Assembly: GCA_002733185.1 (NCBI GenBank)
Contig: NVUT01000008.1
Span: 60,854 to 95,086, forward strand
Source of the DNA: Flavobacterium sp.
Lineage (GTDB): Bacteria > Bacteroidota > Bacteroidia > Flavobacteriales > Flavobacteriaceae
DNA length: 34,233 nucleotides
Direction of reading: 5' to 3'
In this document: positions 1,598-34,230 of the stretch, piece by piece
How positions within the stretch are numbered: the first letter of the stretch is position 1
Layout: each line of letters opens with the position of its first letter
Position numbers and translations under genes: made by a program
Notes under the pieces: model-generated
Told to the model about the DNA's origin: nothing
Database searches by the model: none
The model's input: only the letters and a program-made list of their open reading frames with translations

Positions 1598-3091
1598 ATG
1601 AAAACTAAAAACGGTATTCTTTCATTCGTATTTTTTACTATTTCTTTTTTGGTATTTTCTCAAGATGGTGTTTTAGATCCTTCTTTTGGCGATAACGGTA
1701 TTGTAACAATGGATTTTTATAATTATAAAGATTATAGCTTTGGTATCTCTCAGCAAAATAGCGGTAAAATTATTTCAACAGGACAAATAGAAACGGAAAA
1801 TGATATATCTCAAGGGTCATTAGTTAGGTTTCAGACAAATGGTTCTTTAGATACCACTTTTGGGAACGATGGAGTTGTTCTCTTAGATCTAGGAACCTAT
1901 TTTTATTATTATAACACTATTTTTTCGCTAGATAATGACGAATTAATTGCGGGAGGTACTATTGGGAATTGGGGCGAAAAGGATTTTATAATTAGTAAGT
2001 TTATGCCTAATGGAGATGTTGATTCTGGTTATGGTGTAAACGGAAATAAAATAATTGACTTTCTTACTGAAGATGATGTTCTTTTACAAACAATTCAACA
2101 TAATGGAAAAACATTAGCAATGGGACGTTCTAAAGTAGGTTCAGAATATTTTATTTCATTAGCAAAACTACTTCCCTCTGGAGAATTAGATACTGATTTT
2201 GGTATAGATGGTTTACTTACATTAGATATTAATGAGGGATATTTTAATTCATTTTCAGCTTCTTTACAAGATGATAATTCAATTATTTTATCATTTACGG
2301 AAGATTTAAATAGTAACAATAGAGCGAATAAAATTATTAAACTTTTGGAAAATGGGACTATAGATAACACTTTTGGAAACGATGGAGTTATAGAAATTCT
2401 ATTTAGTGACGTTAATAATATTCGATCAACTATTGAGGTAGATTCTAACAATAAAATTCTTTTTATGATTACTCAAGATATTGAACTTGATGTATATTCT
2501 AGTTCAATATCTCGTTATACATCAACGGGTAATTTAGACACAACTTTTGGAACGAATGGTTTCTATAATTTTGAAACTTCTTTTTATTCTCGAAAAATAA
2601 TTATTCAACCCAATTCAAGAATTCTTATTGGCGGTGGGATTCCCGGGTTTGAAAGCTCTCAATTTGTATTAAAACGTTTGTTTGATAATGGAACAATAGA
2701 TAATTCATTAAACGAAAATATTTATGGAAATTTTGAAAACTCAGATTTTATCCTTCAAGAAGACGGAAAAATATTGGCTACAGGAAGCACTTATTGGTAT
2801 GATGGTCCAGAAGACATGGTACTTGTTCGTTATAATAACGATCCTTTAAGTATCTCAGACAACAATATCAAAAACCTTATTGTTTTCCCCAACCCCTCAA
2901 AAGGAATATTCAACATAACCCACGGTTTTATTGTTTCTGAAACAACATATCAAATTTTAGATATCACGGGAAAACTTATCCAACAAGGAAATATGTCTGG
3001 CGAACAAACGCAGTTAGATATTTCTCAATTTGAAAATGGTGTGTATTTGTTTACTTCAGAAGGAAGTACGGTTCGATTGATAAAAAACTAA
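1598..3091 (+). CDS. Delta-60 repeat (DUF5122-type) beta-propeller protein with T9SS C-terminal sorting domain
   Basis: Signal peptide MKTKNGILSFVFFTISFLVFSQ; about seven units of the D-x-x-F-G-x-x-G type (DPSFGDNGIVTMDF, DTTFGNDGVVLLDL, DTDFGIDGLLTLDI, DNTFGNDGVIEILF, DTTFGTNGFYNFET); C-term NLIVFPNPSKGIFNI...YQILDITGKLIQQG...GVYLF = type A CTD. Confidence 0.88.
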   Translation: MKTKNGILSFVFFTISFLVFSQDGVLDPSFGDNGIVTMDFYNYKDYSFGISQQNSGKIISTGQIETENDISQGSLVRFQTNGSLDTTFGNDGVVLLDLGTYFYYYNTIFSLDNDELIAGGTIGNWGEKDFIISKFMPNGDVDSGYGVNGNKIIDFLTEDDVLLQTIQHNGKTLAMGRSKVGSEYFISLAKLLPSGELDTDFGIDGLLTLDINEGYFNSFSASLQDDNSIILSFTEDLNSNNRANKIIKLLENGTIDNTFGNDGVIEILFSDVNNIRSTIEVDSNNKILFMITQDIELDVYSSSISRYTSTGNLDTTFGTNGFYNFETSFYSRKIIIQPNSRILIGGGIPGFESSQFVLKRLFDNGTIDNSLNENIYGNFENSDFILQEDGKILATGSTYWYDGPEDMVLVRYNNDPLSISDNNIKNLIVFPNPSKGIFNITHGFIVSETTYQILDITGKLIQQGNMSGEQTQLDISQFENGVYLFTSEGSTVRLIKN

Positions 3092-4287: not shown

Positions 4288-6204
4288 TTACTGTTTTACA
4301 AACCTATACAGCTCTTTTATTATTTTATTTAATAATAAGTTTTCATTAATTAACTCTTTATAATCTATACCAGATTCTATTAAAAAATCACAAAGTCTAA
4401 ATTTATAACTGGTGTTTAATGTTCCTGAAATAGCTTTAAAAGCTTTGTGGCTTGTTTTTGGAATACCATTTTTAACAAATAAGTCTTCATAAAATTTTCC
4501 TAGACCAATTTTTTTGAAATCACTTTGTTTTATTTTAAGTTCTTTAATTTCATCAAACAATCGTTCCTCCTTTAATAAAATTTTAGAAAAGGATAAAATA
4601 ATTTTTGAGGGTAACAGGTTTTCTATTTCAACAACTTCTGTGTTTTGATATTTAAAATTCTTCTTGTTTTTAGATAAAATTTCAAGTTCTTTTTTTCTTT
4701 TTCCTTTTTTTGTTGTCCCTTTAGCATTATCATTATCTGCTAGTAAATATATTTTATTTGAAATTGCAAAAGAGTTAATTTCTTCTTTTACTATTTCATT
4801 TGCTTCATTAAATTTATCATCAAATAAATAATGTGAAATTAAAGACCCTCCATATTCAAAAAAAGCAAAATCAATGTCTTCAATTAATGGAGACTCCCCC
4901 TTATTAATAGAATATTGTCTTAACCAATAGCTCAAATATTTCCTGTCTGTAGGTCCTTCTACCCAAATAGAAGAGTTTGCAATTAGGACAGAAGAATTTG
5001 ACACTCCTAAAATGTCTAGCGTATCTTTTGTTGGTTTTTTTAAATATTCAATAGTAATTGATTTCTCATTTATCTTTTCAAATTGAAAAATTGATACATC
5101 TTTACTTAAAATTGATGCATCCAAAAAATGATTAGAATGTGTTGTCATGAAAAGTTTAAGATTTTTTTTCTTAAGATATTCATCTTCCAAAATAGTTCTT
5201 AAAAATATTTTTTGGTATCCTGGGTGTAAATGATTCTCTGGTTCATCTATAAAAATCCAATCATTATTTGAAGCCGTGAAAATTGGAAACATCAGTAAAA
5301 TAATTGATTGTAAACCGTCTCCTAAATCCCACAAAAACCTCTCCTCATCTCCTATCAAAAAACGAATTTTTCTTTTGTCATTTGAAGATGTAATTTTAAT
5401 TCTTTGGTTATCAAAAAAATTAATTGATAAAAATTCTTCAAATTTATCCTTTCTCTCCTGTATTTTAAATTCTTCTCCTTGAAGATGCCTAATACTATCA
5501 AATAAATCTAATCCAATAAAAACATCTGTTTCAATTTTATAATTTTCTTTGATTGTTTCAAGAAATGTACTTTTATTTAAATTGTCGTTTGCATTTGCAT
5601 ATCTTAAAACAGGAATATATTTTCTCTTACTTATTATATTCTCCTGATGAAATAAGAGATCCTTTGAAAGAATTTTATTTAGTTTAATAATTTCTTTCAC
5701 ATTGTTAAGATAATTAATATCTTGTTGTAATATCCCTTTTTTTTCCAAGGATTCTATTTCAAATAAAATTTCGTTTTCAAGGTTAGTAAATAATTCTAAA
5801 TCTATTTTACTTGTCAAATACTTTAAAATGTCAACTCTATTATCAATATTTGATAGTTTTGCATAGTTTTCGATATTATTTCTTATATTTCTCATATTTC
5901 TTGAAGAATAATTTAACACTCTGCCATAGATGTTTTTAACATTTGAAAATAATTCTAAAATTGACGCATCTCCTTTGAACACTTCTATTTGAGGTTTGTT
6001 TAATTTAAAAACACCTCTTAAAAACCTGCTTTTCCCGCTATTATTAGCTCCAATAAAAAAATTTATCTTTTCAAAATTTTTTAAAATGGAAATTCCTTTA
6101 CTATTTAATTTTGGGAAGACTAAATCTTTATTAATTTTATAATTTGTTAAAAAAAGCTCTTCAGGGATTTCTGTATTATTCTTATATTTAATTCCAATAT
6201 TCAT
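4288..6204 (-). CDS. AAA ATPase with C-terminal TOPRIM domain, OLD-family (overcoming lysogenization defect-like) endonuclease, stand-alone
   Basis: 638 aa; Walker A FIGANNSGKSRFL, ABC-like Walker B WIFIDEPENHLHPGYQ, switch His MTTHSNHFLDAS, TOPRIM Glu WVEGPTDRKYLSYWL and D-N-D motif YLLADNDNAKG, later VVEIENLLP. Confidence 0.82.
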   Translation of the reverse strand: MNIGIKYKNNTEIPEELFLTNYKINKDLVFPKLNSKGISILKNFEKINFFIGANNSGKSRFLRGVFKLNKPQIEVFKGDASILELFSNVKNIYGRVLNYSSRNMRNIRNNIENYAKLSNIDNRVDILKYLTSKIDLELFTNLENEILFEIESLEKKGILQQDINYLNNVKEIIKLNKILSKDLLFHQENIISKRKYIPVLRYANANDNLNKSTFLETIKENYKIETDVFIGLDLFDSIRHLQGEEFKIQERKDKFEEFLSINFFDNQRIKITSSNDKRKIRFLIGDEERFLWDLGDGLQSIILLMFPIFTASNNDWIFIDEPENHLHPGYQKIFLRTILEDEYLKKKNLKLFMTTHSNHFLDASILSKDVSIFQFEKINEKSITIEYLKKPTKDTLDILGVSNSSVLIANSSIWVEGPTDRKYLSYWLRQYSINKGESPLIEDIDFAFFEYGGSLISHYLFDDKFNEANEIVKEEINSFAISNKIYLLADNDNAKGTTKKGKRKKELEILSKNKKNFKYQNTEVVEIENLLPSKIILSFSKILLKEERLFDEIKELKIKQSDFKKIGLGKFYEDLFVKNGIPKTSHKAFKAISGTLNTSYKFRLCDFLIESGIDYKELINENLLLNKIIKELYRFVKQ

Positions 6205-28901: not shown

Positions 28902-28926
28902 GCGGTAACTATATACCACTTTACAC
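28902..28926 (+). repeat. Left terminal inverted repeat
   Basis: GCGGTAACTATATACCACTTTACAC; mirrors 32490-32514. Confidence 0.8.
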
Positions 28927-29180
28927 TAGAGATGAAAAAGTGTTTTTATAATTTTAGCTATTTACATTAATATATTAAGGGAAAAATAGTCATATAAGAT
29001 ATTATGACGCATAAGCCGTTAATCGAGTTTTCTTTTATATTTTGCTTTCGTATTACTATTTTATATATATTTACAACATATAGCACTCTTGGCTACGTTT
29101 TTCCAAATGTTATTTCTTAACTAATAGCGGGAATACCAACCCAAGAGTTTTCTTTTATCCCCATTTTTAATATTTATTAA

Positions 29181-29867
29181 ATGAATAAAAACGGCTCTAA
29201 AGTTGCCATTTTAGTAGATGGGTCATTCTTCTTAAAAAGATATAAATCCCTCACCAAGGATTACGACACCAAGTCTCCATCTGATGTAGTTAGTGAATTA
29301 TATGAAATGTGTATGAAGCACATTTATAAAAATGACTCATTATATCGAATTTTGTTTTACGATTGTAAGCCCCTTGTAAAAAAAGCTCATAATCCTATAT
29401 CTGGAAAACTCATAGATTATTCTAAAACGGAAGTATCGATTTTTAGGAATGAACTATTTGAACAATTGAAGAGAAAAAGAAAGGTTGCATTGCGTCTAGG
29501 GTATCTTCAGAGTAGTAAGGACTGGGTTATTTCGCCTTGGAAAACAAAAGATTTACTAAATGGAAAAATAAAGATTTCAGATCTCACGGATAAAGACATT
29601 CAACTTAATATTAAGCAAAAAAGAGTTGATATTAAGATCGGGCAAGACATAGCATCGTTAGCTCTCAAAAAATCTGTTGATAAAATAATACTTATATCTG
29701 GGGATGGAGATTTTGTGCCTGCTGCTAAATTAGCTCGTAGAGAGGGAATTGATTTTGTGTTAGATCCAATGTGGAATCAAATAGACCCATTGCTTTTTGA
29801 GCACATCGATGGATTAAGAAACGTAATCCCTAAACCAAGCTATTTAAAAAAGAAAGAAGGCTCCTGA
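29181..29867 (+). CDS. NYN-domain (PIN-like) putative RNase
   Basis: 228 aa; acidic NYN signature residues: VAILVDGSFFLKR, YRILFYDCKP, KIILISGDGDFVPAAKLARREGIDFVLD. Confidence 0.85.
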   Translation: MNKNGSKVAILVDGSFFLKRYKSLTKDYDTKSPSDVVSELYEMCMKHIYKNDSLYRILFYDCKPLVKKAHNPISGKLIDYSKTEVSIFRNELFEQLKRKRKVALRLGYLQSSKDWVISPWKTKDLLNGKIKISDLTDKDIQLNIKQKRVDIKIGQDIASLALKKSVDKIILISGDGDFVPAAKLARREGIDFVLDPMWNQIDPLLFEHIDGLRNVIPKPSYLKKKEGS

Positions 29868-30148
29868 AAGCCTTCTTGAGACCTAAAGGTCTACTCAAGT
29901 CTTACAAAGCGATCCAAAAGGCAAAGCACTTGGCTTTCTTAGGATAAATCCTAACTCCATTTTTGACAATGAACCTTCTAAATACTAGCTTGTGTAAAAC
30001 TCCATTGAACATCTTGGTTTTCATACTAATAAGTATTAACTGGCAGACGTATTAATACTAAAGGCTTAAAATTAGCCTGCATAACGTTAAGCCCATTGCC
30101 TTTTTAGGCAACTGAAAACCCTCGATATCAGGATAACGAGGGTTTTTT
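29855..30148 (+). ncRNA. Candidate structured RNA / structured 3' UTR downstream of the NYN gene
   Basis: No ORF in the supplied track; series of inverted repeats: AGAAGGCT/AGCCTTCT (29855-29876), CTTGAG/CTCAAG (29875-29899), TTAGGA/TCCTAA (29939-29954), AGTATTAA/TTAATACT (30032-30059), AGGCT/AGCCT (30062-30078), TTGCCT/AGGCAA (30096-30111), then terminator 30115-30148. Confidence 0.45.
30115..30148 (+). terminator. Strong rho-independent terminator
   Basis: AAAACCCTCG-atatcaggataa-CGAGGGTTTTTT. Confidence 0.9.
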
Positions 30149-30328
30149 ACTGTTAAACGAAGCGTTTGTGATTTCTTCGATTTGATTTATCTACCAAATT
30201 ATTCAGAATACAAAAACACGTTCAACTATTTAATACTATTAGTATAGTAAGATGTTCGAAGCAAATATACACAAATATACCAAGCCAAGAATAAAATTAA
30301 ATAATTAGAACTTAAATACACTATATTA

Positions 30329-30381: not shown

Positions 30382-31293
30382 ATGATTAACAAGGACTTTA
30401 AATCGATACTAGAATTAATAAAAGCGTTTCCAGACGAGCAAACTTGCATCGACCACTTAACTGAAATACGTTGGAACGAAAACGTGGTAAGTCCTTTTGA
30501 CGCATCTTCTAAGGTATATAACTGTGCAGGGAGTAAGTACAAGTGTAAAAACACAGGAAAGTACTTTAATGTAAAAACCAATACAATATTTGATAATACT
30601 AAGTTGCCATTACAAAAATGGTTTCTTGCTATTTGGTTGGTCACAGGACATAAAAAAGGAATTTCATCTTTACAATTAGGACGTGATTTAGACATTACTC
30701 AAAAATCTGCTTGGTTTATGTTACAACGCATACGACAATGTTTTGGAATTGATAATAACGAGCAAATGGATGGAGAGATTGAAGCTGATGAAACATTTGT
30801 AGGTGGTAAAAATAAAAACAGACACGCAAATAAAAAGGTTCACGGTACTACTAATGATAAAACACCAGTTTTAGGAATGATACAAAGAAACGGTAGATTA
30901 GTAGCTAAAAAAATACCTAATACTACTAAGGAAACACTAACCGCTGAAATCATTAAGAATGTAAAATTAGGCGCTACTTTATATACAGATGAATACACTT
31001 CTTACAAGTCTTTACAGCGAGTTTACGACCACCAAACAGTTAAGCATAGCCAAAGACAATATGTTAACGGTAGGGTTCATACAAATACAATAGAAGGTTT
31101 TTGGTCAATCTTAAAACGTGGTATTTTTGGAGTATACCATTTTACCTCTAAAAAGCACTTACAGTTATATGTAGATGAATTTGTGTTTAGATATAATTCA
31201 AGAACAATTACAGAAGCAAGTAGATTTAATTTACTTTTGACAAATACAGAGAATAGAATAACATATAAGGAATTGATAAATGACAAAAGATAG
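30382..31293 (+). CDS. IS1595 family (ISXO2-like) transposase
   Basis: 303 aa; degenerate zinc ribbon YNCAGSKYKCKNTGKYFNVKTNTIFDNTKLPLQKWFLAIWL; GEIEADETFVGGKNKNRH, LYTDEYTSY, HTNTIEGFWSILKRGIFGVYH. Confidence 0.93.
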   Translation: MINKDFKSILELIKAFPDEQTCIDHLTEIRWNENVVSPFDASSKVYNCAGSKYKCKNTGKYFNVKTNTIFDNTKLPLQKWFLAIWLVTGHKKGISSLQLGRDLDITQKSAWFMLQRIRQCFGIDNNEQMDGEIEADETFVGGKNKNRHANKKVHGTTNDKTPVLGMIQRNGRLVAKKIPNTTKETLTAEIIKNVKLGATLYTDEYTSYKSLQRVYDHQTVKHSQRQYVNGRVHTNTIEGFWSILKRGIFGVYHFTSKKHLQLYVDEFVFRYNSRTITEASRFNLLLTNTENRITYKELINDKR

Positions 31294-32269
31294 GTTTTTA
31301 AACGTTGAAGACACGATAATTTCAGTACTAGATGTAAATAATTCAGATTACATAAGTTTAACTGATATGGTCAAAAACGAAGAAGGTAACGATCATATCC
31401 GTAACTGGATGCGTAATAGAAATACTGTTGAGTTTTTAGGTGTTTGGGAAACATTAAACAATAAAAATTTTAAAGGTGTCGGATTCGACACCCTTAGAAA
31501 AGAAGCGGGTTTGAACTCATTTAATTTAACTCCTCGAAAATGGATTGAAACAACAAATGCTAGTGGTATTATTTCTAAGTCTGGCAGAGGTGGCGGAACT
31601 TATGCTCATAAAGACATTGCCTTTGAGTTTGGCGCATGGATAAGCCCAATTTTTAGATTATATGTAATTAAAGAGTATCAGCGGTTAAAAAAGGTTGAAA
31701 ACGACACATATAATCTTGAATGGGACGTAAGAAGAATATTAACTAAAGCTAATTATCATTTTCATACTGACGCTGTACAAAACCATATTATACCAAATTC
31801 TAAAAAACCAAAAGACAAACAATGGTTAGAATATGCAGAAGAAGCAGATTTGCTTAACCTAGCTGTTTTTGGATGCACTGCAAAAGAATGGAGAGATGCA
31901 AACCCTCAACTTGTAAAAGACAAGAAAAATATTAGAGATTTTGCTAGTATTAACGAATTAGTTGTGATGGGTAATATGGAATCTTTAAGTGCTGAAATGA
32001 TAAAAGTTGGAGGTTCAAAGGAGGCTCGTTTTAAGTTAATGAAAACATCAGCTAAAGAACAATTAGAAAAGTTAAAAGACATTGATTTAATAAAATCGGT
32101 AAGAAAACAAAGTAAGACTACTTATATTGAAGCACAAGAAAAAACAGGAGAAGAATTAGAATTGCTTACGGGTAAATCAATCCTAGATAAAAATAAAAAA
32201 GCTCTTTCTGACTTTAATAAAAAATTAAAAAAGGGATTAGAATGGAATCCGAAAGAACATAAAAAATAA
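31280..32269 (+). CDS. KilA-N domain DNA-binding-like protein (transposon passenger)
   Basis: 329 aa; SDYISLTDMVKNEEGNDHIRNWMRNRNTVEFLGVWETLNN...SGIISKSGRGGGTYAHKDIAFEFGAWISPIFRLYVIKEYQRLK; overlaps transposase 3' end by 14 nt. Confidence 0.88.
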   Translation: MTKDRFLNVEDTIISVLDVNNSDYISLTDMVKNEEGNDHIRNWMRNRNTVEFLGVWETLNNKNFKGVGFDTLRKEAGLNSFNLTPRKWIETTNASGIISKSGRGGGTYAHKDIAFEFGAWISPIFRLYVIKEYQRLKKVENDTYNLEWDVRRILTKANYHFHTDAVQNHIIPNSKKPKDKQWLEYAEEADLLNLAVFGCTAKEWRDANPQLVKDKKNIRDFASINELVVMGNMESLSAEMIKVGGSKEARFKLMKTSAKEQLEKLKDIDLIKSVRKQSKTTYIEAQEKTGEELELLTGKSILDKNKKALSDFNKKLKKGLEWNPKEHKK

Positions 32270-32489: not shown

Positions 32490-32514
32490 GTGTAAACTTG
32501 TATATAGTTACCCC
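32490..32514 (-). repeat. Right terminal inverted repeat
   Basis: Plus strand GTGTAAACTTGTATATAGTTACCCC; reverse complement matches 28902-28926 at 22/25. Confidence 0.8.
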
Positions 32515-33091: not shown

Positions 33092-33177
33092 AAGACTGTT
33101 TAAATAACGTCTTTTTAACTCCAAATAGTTGGCAGGTAAAAGACACGGGGAGTTATTTTTAAACGGTCTTCTTTTTT
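33092..33177. terminator. Complex convergent terminator between ssb and the Fic gene
   Basis: Outer arms AAGACTGTTTAAA / TTTAAACGGTCTT followed by CTTTTTTTAT; additional internal complementary segments. Confidence 0.7.
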
Positions 33178-33775
33178 TATTCCATCGAAAAAGAAATTAA
33201 ATCTTTAAAATCTCCTTGATCTGCTTTTTTTAAAGCTGTAATATAAAATTTTCGATTGTCATTTTTACTACCCAGTTTTTTTGACCCCCAAGTAAAGCTA
33301 GGTTTTTTAAAAATCTGTTTCATAATAATATCTCCCAATAGTCTCGAATGTCTTCCATTTCCATTAGGGAAAATATGAATAGCAACTAATTCATGTTTAA
33401 AACGAATGGCAATTTCTTCTTCAGAAAAGGTTTTATTATCAATCCAAAAAATACAATTATCGATTAATTGTCTTAATCGAATAGAAATTTGAAACCGATC
33501 AACTCCAATGTTTTTATTCGAGTTTCTTAATGTTCCAGCCCATTTCCATACATCTCCAAACATTTGTTTATGAACCCTTAAACAAACTCTTGAGTTAAGA
33601 TTATCTCTTTCTTAAATTTCCTTCGTAATAAATAATATTCAATAGCTTTTTCAATATTTAATTGTTCAAATTCATTAAGTTCTTCCTGACTTGTAATTGT
33701 AGGAATTAGTAAACCTTCTTTTTCATCCTCATCAATTGGAGTTTGTCCAACGTTGTATCTTAAATCTAATCCCAT
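33177..33775 (-). pseudogene. Mobile mystery protein B-like Fic-domain protein, split by an apparent 1-nt frameshift
   Basis: ORF 33578-33775 (MGLDLRYNVGQTPIDEDEKEGLLIPTITSQEELNEFEQLNIEKAIEYYLLRRKFKKEIILTQEFV*) continues in another frame as RVHKQMFGDVWKWAGTLRNSNKNIG...HIFPNGNGRHSRLLGDII (33177-33578). Confidence 0.82.
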
Positions 33776-34230
33776 AAATATCTTGGCATTTCAGAAACTA
33801 ATTGAATCGTTTTGTCTTCTATTGCTTTTTGTAGTCGTTCGTCACGATTTTCTTGATCTTCTAATGCCATGGTATTGGAAGTTGATTTTACAATTTCCAA
33901 AGCTAATTCTCTAGCGCGTTTTTCTATTGTTATTTCAATTGATCCATCCAAAGGAACAAACCCATAAACAAGTTTCATGTTTAAAATACGTCCCGCTTCC
34001 TCTAAACTTTTAAGAGTAATGCTTCCATTTCTCTCTCTTTTTTCTATACTCTCTGCGGAAGGGGCAGTGATGCCTAATCGCTCACCAAATTGTCTAAAAG
34101 ACATTTTATAAGTTTTTCGAATCGCATGGATCCACCCTTTTTCTGGTTTTTGAATTTTTAATAACGGAACATATACTTGGAGCTTACTATCTAATTGCTC
34201 GATTATTAATTTTTGTTTTGAATCTTTCAT
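33766..34230 (-). CDS. Mobile mystery protein A-like HTH protein
   Basis: 154 aa; KGWIHAIRKTYKMSFRQFGERLGITAPSAESIEKRERNGSITLKSLEEAGRILNMKLVYGFVP; overlaps the Fic gene start by 10 nt. Confidence 0.88.
   Translation of the reverse strand: MKDSKQKLIIEQLDSKLQVYVPLLKIQKPEKGWIHAIRKTYKMSFRQFGERLGITAPSAESIEKRERNGSITLKSLEEAGRILNMKLVYGFVPLDGSIEITIEKRARELALEIVKSTSNTMALEDQENRDERLQKAIEDKTIQLVSEMPRYLWD

Follow-up and report, generated by a model that had tools for sequence, protein, structure and literature searches.

A TEG147-like hairpin RNA accompanies a family of NYN-domain nuclease genes on mobile elements and probably keeps the nuclease in check

In type III toxin–antitoxin (TA) systems (ToxIN, CptIN and TenpIN), which act in abortive infection, an RNA gene, a terminator and an endoribonuclease gene lie under one promoter (PMC5086642). 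In prophage phi027 of Clostridioides difficile, the RNA RCd22 directly binds and neutralises the RNase AbiF, in cis and in trans; read-through yields the toxin mRNA, and deletion of RCd22 raised expression 17-fold (PMC12373285). Teg147 is a small RNA (sRNA) from a genomic island of Staphylococcus aureus without assigned function (PMC5826253, PMC3053349, PMC7779021), listed among bona fide sRNAs with a length of 60 nt and expression in HG003 (PMC5826253). The papers that we found on TEG147 report neither a function nor a link to NYN proteins, and Rfam types the family (RF03535) as Cis-reg. The phage protein family phrog_5783, which is the NYN family described below, is annotated as of unknown function with no RNA partner recorded.

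Here we analysed a 34,233-nt stretch of Flavobacterium DNA (contig NVUT01000008.1, in the following called the window). The plus-strand gene at 29181–29867 encodes a NYN-domain protein of 228 amino acids. The domain call, made in the first-pass annotation from the letters of the DNA, was confirmed by the PF01936 profile (E-value 3.4e-12; 47.5 bits against a gathering cut-off of 24.2), and the phrog_5783 profile matched as well (E-value 6e-78, 262.8 bits). Pfam assigned NYN as the sole domain, without ToxN/CptN/TenpN or Abi_2/HEPN, and PADLOC returned NYN/LabA-like together with a weak HEC-09 match. The acidic residues D13, D61, D150, D156, D175 and D177 are invariant across 49 homologues, and the protein is, judged from its sequence, a putative RNase with intact active-site residues. 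An AlphaFold model reached a pLDDT of 93.5; Foldseek gave nothing better than weak matches to Rossmann-like structures (TM about 0.3), and a sequence search of the PDB yielded no solved-structure relatives. Homologues about 40–57% identical are found on plasmids, phages and in Bacteroidota genomes. The closest relative, 86% identical at the protein level and 47% at third codon positions, lies on a contig from the metagenome-assembled genome of an uncultured Dokdonia (locus L003).

Looking at the DNA before the NYN homologues, we found a terminator-like hairpin directly 5′ of the start almost every time. We aligned 57 of these RNAs (alignment A2), deliberately excluding the window and L003, and derived a general covariance model (R1) from them. 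In the consensus, an outer stem of roughly 8 bp encloses an internal loop, inner stems of 2 bp and 4 bp and a short loop, and a U-tail follows; the RNAs are single hairpins without tandem repeats. The internal loop contains UA in 54 of the 57 sequences and GUA in 46, with AGUA opposite GA in 28. Double-sided changes occur in every one of the 14 pairs, and 90.6% of the cells are paired; the covariation score is 0.668, whereas shuffled alignments give 0.262 and slid ones no more than 0.268. The ten column pairs with the strongest APC-corrected mutual information are all pairs of the structure.

Of 89 distinct NYN loci, 77 have an R1 match 5′ of the gene (70 of them with at least 30 bits), and 4–83 nt lie between the match and the first aligned residue of NYN. 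Because most of the 89 loci had also supplied sequences to R1, the independent test is given by nine further non-lambda loci outside the model, which all matched. The median distance from the RNA to the start codon is 16 nt, and sigma70-like promoters scoring at least 10/12 precede the RNA in 49% of cases, compared with 3% of shuffles.

In the Bacteroidota type the inner stem and the loop are longer, which is why R1 barely detected the RNA of the window (14.8 bits). We therefore built a separate model (R2) from eight members of the Bacteroidota type, again leaving out the window and L003. R2 matched the window at 29083–29156 on the plus strand (~74 nt) with 58.3 bits and an E-value of 2.6e-14; the next best match scored 11.5 bits, and this is the sole strong match in the genome. 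Including the window, the Bacteroidota subtype is 94.3% paired with a covariation score of 0.555 (0.274 shuffled, at most 0.168 slid), and a hand alignment of subtype sequences agrees on the covariation. A search with R2 over 396 genomes of the phylum, using strict filters that miss weak matches, gave two matches, both directly 5′ of NYN.

The window RNA is composed of stem S1 (29085–29092/29141–29148), stem S2 (29097–29104/29129–29136) and a U-tail (29149–29156), a combination predicted to act as a terminator, and 24 nt separate it from the NYN start. An additional hairpin on the 5′ side of S1 with a stem of at least 6, found in 48% of the family and 20% of shuffles, is absent here. The fold has a z-score of −3.4, and the RNA is 85% identical to its L003 counterpart, compared with 53–56% for the flanks. 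Upstream lies a predicted Bacteroidota-type promoter (29041–29073, plus strand), with TTTG at 29041–29044 and, after 21 nt, TATATTTA at 29066–29073, where L003 carries TATATTTG; we take the underlying consensus to be TTTG/TAnnTTTG. About 10 nt lie between the promoter and the RNA, and S1 begins about 11 nt past the −7 box.

Several NYN-associated RNAs match TEG147 end to end (model positions 1–60); one of them (L078, 58.3 bits) exceeds the gathering score of 56.1 bits and another (L023) comes near it. The Rfam model, being narrow, fails to detect most of the family, including the window RNA, for which Rfam gave no match.

The RNA with its covariation was found 5′ of NYN in elements from Bacteroidota, Bacillota, Pseudomonadota and Deinococcota. 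A structured RNA of 60–75 nt accompanies the NYN family on phages, plasmids and in bacteria of several phyla. The carriers are temperate phages, plasmids and transposons, and the cassettes adjoin integrase or CI genes or lie between CI and N, a position also held by rexAB in lambda. On a Thermus plasmid (L027), the RNA and NYN lie between helicase and N-6 DNA methylase genes in a defence-island-like setting.

When viral contigs were searched with the RNA pattern only, NYN was the next gene in 8 of 11 loci; the other three copies (L225:9263, L229:3632 and L257:3208) have no NYN gene in their vicinity. Phage L057 has one copy before NYN and a second (2939–2998, plus strand, 59.8 bits) before a tyrosine integrase gene. 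Together with the NYN-less copies, this shows that the link between the RNA and NYN is not a strict one. No recognisable RNA was found 5′ of NYN in the Campylobacter plasmid homologues (L009, L030 and L031), and in two lambda-type loci (L008 and L026) the RNA position is taken by a three-tier hairpin that R1 does not score. In E. coli the RNA is found in all 275 records, in most of which the match to the NYN query extends over only about half its length. We inspected one record, an O157:H7 prophage (L258), where NYN is shortened beside an IS1203 copy and the upstream RNA is intact. The shortening may have arisen once and then been passed on within a clone.

In the window, two arms of a possible terminal inverted repeat (28904–28926, plus strand, and 32490–32512, minus strand; 21 of 23 nt complementary) enclose 3.6 kb with the RNA, NYN, a small-protein gene described below, a transposase gene and a KilA-N gene. 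The transposase (30382–31293, plus strand) belongs to the IS1595 family (ISXO2-like; PF12762, E-value 3.8e-45) and is part of a blastn block shared with L003 (28947–31289), which reaches from about 28947 to the transposase end. A related end (17 of 23 positions) lies at the left of L003. The enclosed element is possibly an IS1595-type transposon of 3.6 kb; no target-site duplication was found at its ends. The KilA-N gene (31280–32269, plus strand), whose start overlaps the transposase end, matches the PADLOC candidate defence model PDC-S22 very strongly (E-value 2e-117). Elsewhere in the window we noted an AAA_15/OLD-like ATPase (4288–6204, minus strand) related to the defence proteins AriA, AbiLi and GajA. 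At the right end (33177–34230, minus strand), a Fic-domain protein (PDC-S04-like) and a helix-turn-helix protein form a possible defence or toxin–antitoxin module.

From the linkage and the covariation we propose, with a probability of roughly 0.58, that the RNA is an antitoxin or attenuator controlling a NYN toxin and that NYN supplies the protein component of a mobile RNA–RNase cassette. The 60–75-nt RNA probably keeps the nuclease in check in the manner of an antidote. The promoter would drive the ~74-nt hairpin RNA, which would end in its own intrinsic terminator; most transcripts would stop there, keeping NYN expression low, and a minority would read through into the NYN mRNA. The RNA, present in excess, would bind NYN, probably at the conserved region of internal loop and inner stem, and hold the RNase inactive. 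Loss or degradation of the RNA, for instance upon phage takeover or loss of the element, would then free the RNase to cut RNA, resulting in abortive infection or addiction. Such a role in exclusion or abortive infection agrees with where the cassettes lie, beside integrase and repressor genes or in the interval from CI to N.

As the RNA is a single hairpin and itself the terminator, it could be merely a cis attenuator under feedback, with NYN or another factor binding or cleaving the leader hairpin and thereby tuning read-through, possibly also for other genes with the same leader. This is the chief rival of an antitoxin role, and it accounts well for the short median distance between terminator hairpin and start codon, for the second RNA copy of phage L057 directly before the integrase gene and for the Cis-reg type given to TEG147. 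We nevertheless consider it rather unlikely, because Teg147 is listed as a separate, expressed sRNA of 60 nt (PMC5826253) and because the internal loop, with its near-constant UA and frequent GUA, shows stronger conservation than a simple terminator would require.

The strong one-to-one genomic linkage and the conserved internal loop would also suit an effector ribonucleoprotein, in which the RNA carried by NYN helps to choose or present targets instead of inhibiting the protein. The RNAs have short and partly conserved apical loops and no variable guide-like segment, and we regard this idea as improbable.

A further candidate lies on the other side of the gene. The first-pass annotation had described a hairpin-rich, non-coding tract of about 290 nt, transcriptionally fused to NYN, as the RNA partner or substrate of the RNase. 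Its structural description was borne out. A hairpin formed by AAGAAGGCT and AGCCTTCTT at 29854–29877 holds the TGA stop of NYN within its loop, several further inverted repeats follow, and the tract ends in a plus-strand terminator (AAAACCCTCG...CGAGGGTTTTTT, 30115–30148). Its predicted folding energy is −76.3 kcal/mol, compared with −58.0 kcal/mol for dinucleotide shuffles (z-score −4.1, 0 of 100). The tract (29868–30148) is 92% identical to L003, and must be strongly constrained given the 47% identity at third codon positions of NYN. The Rfam comparison suggested at that stage gave no family on either strand, and a search for tRNA and tmRNA genes was negative as well.

The tract is, however, not free of open reading frames, as had been stated. 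An intact ORF of 40 amino acids (MKTKMFNGVLHKLVFRRFIVKNGVRIYPKKAKCFAFWIAL) lies at 29902–30024 on the minus strand, overlooked because it is too short for the 60-aa ORF track. Its L003 counterpart keeps 38 of the 40 residues; the ten nucleotide differences comprise eight at codon position 3, all silent, and two at position 1, both conservative (I>V, L>V). On the minus strand, the hairpin at the NYN stop continues into TCTTTTTT and looks like the intrinsic terminator of the small-protein gene (AAGAAGGCT ttcagg AGCCTTCTT TCTTTTTT, 29846–29877), with the NYN stop overlapping its loop.

Upstream of the ORF, a structured leader of ~234 nt is predicted at 30025–30258 (minus strand), whose fold (z-score −5.46, 0 of 200 shuffles) is stronger than that of the plus-strand tract. 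The hairpin at 30115–30148 sits inside this leader and doubles as the plus-strand terminator, and two hairpins of the leader show compensatory changes relative to L003. A putative −7 box of the promoter, TATATTTG, can be read directly at 30262–30269 (minus strand) and is conserved in L003; a −33 box is not clearly recognisable. The motif KNGxRIYP of the 40-aa protein recurs in small proteins annotated on plasmids of Planococcus, Staphylococcus xylosus and Parabacteroides, which is suggestive of a relationship; these sequence matches are short, with a best E-value of 0.1. The leader of the possible relative in S. xylosus likewise holds a GCC(A-rich)GGC hairpin. Matches to the 40-aa protein in the genomes of relatives were mostly due to chance.

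Comparison with homologous loci, as had been proposed for the stems of the tract, thus provided compensatory changes in L003 for two hairpins, but the tract is present at just 2 of the 89 NYN loci, the window and L003. Neither tract nor peptide was detected by blastn or tblastn 3′ of the other 87 homologues, and the tract was not found in plasmids or, by exact 24-mer search, in viral contigs. Weak matches in genomes of the class other than that of the window were short, AT-rich and due to chance. Stable folding, together with conservation and compensatory changes in L003, does speak for the first-pass reading; the restricted occurrence, the silent third-position changes of the minus-strand ORF, the stronger minus-strand fold and the use of the stop-codon hairpin as a minus-strand terminator make it very improbable that the tract is the partner or substrate of NYN. 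The suggested pairing of an RNase with a structured RNA does fit the locus, with the difference that the RNA lies upstream of the gene (29083–29156). The tract is most plausibly a convergent gene that encodes a small protein behind a structured leader and is tied to the transposon rather than to NYN, and not a non-coding extension of the NYN transcript, and this gene accounts for the tract at least in part. Since no plus-strand terminator precedes 30148, a long NYN 3′UTR running antisense to the 40-aa gene is possible. A hairpin-rich tract taken as non-coding can thus prove to be a convergent small-protein gene.

A ligand-sensing riboswitch or attenuator unrelated to the protein, which a structured leader with terminator might bring to mind, is hardly credible, as no Rfam riboswitch matched and the partners belong to one nuclease family on mobile elements and not to metabolic genes.

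The preferred reading, an RNA antitoxin or attenuator paired with a NYN toxin, brings together in one testable module the phage family phrog_5783, whose proteins have no assigned function, and TEG147, an sRNA family known from S. aureus for which no role has been reported. If true, it extends RNA-controlled RNases past the ToxN-type and HEPN (AbiF) proteins to the NYN fold. In the literature we found no report on an RNA antitoxin of a NYN protein, with bioRxiv and subscription papers largely outside the coverage.

Like AbiF-RCd22, the cassette places a short structured RNA, which has a promoter of its own and a Rho-independent terminator, immediately 5′ of an RNase gene, and it occurs on temperate phages. 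The nuclease is of the NYN type, unlike the HEPN-type AbiF, and the conserved hairpin is itself the terminator, whereas RCd22 has two abiF motifs and a separate terminator. The abiF motif (RF03085) gave no match in the window (E-value ≤5) or in 17 homologous loci (E-value ≤0.5). With type III TA systems the cassette shares the order of promoter, RNA, Rho-independent terminator and nuclease gene, as far as the arrangement and the putative toxin can be read from sequence, as well as the occurrence on plasmids, phages and chromosomes. It differs from them in having neither a tandem-repeat array nor a predicted pseudoknot, and in a nuclease that is NYN and not ToxN, CptN or TenpN. The RNA–NYN cassette belongs to neither type III TA nor AbiF-RCd22. 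Tentatively, and at slightly less than even odds, we suggest that it represents a new class of RNA-neutralised toxin, in which a NYN-fold RNase on temperate phages, conjugative plasmids and transposons of at least four phyla would be checked by a single self-terminating TEG147-like hairpin RNA that is sometimes borrowed for other genes, such as integrase.
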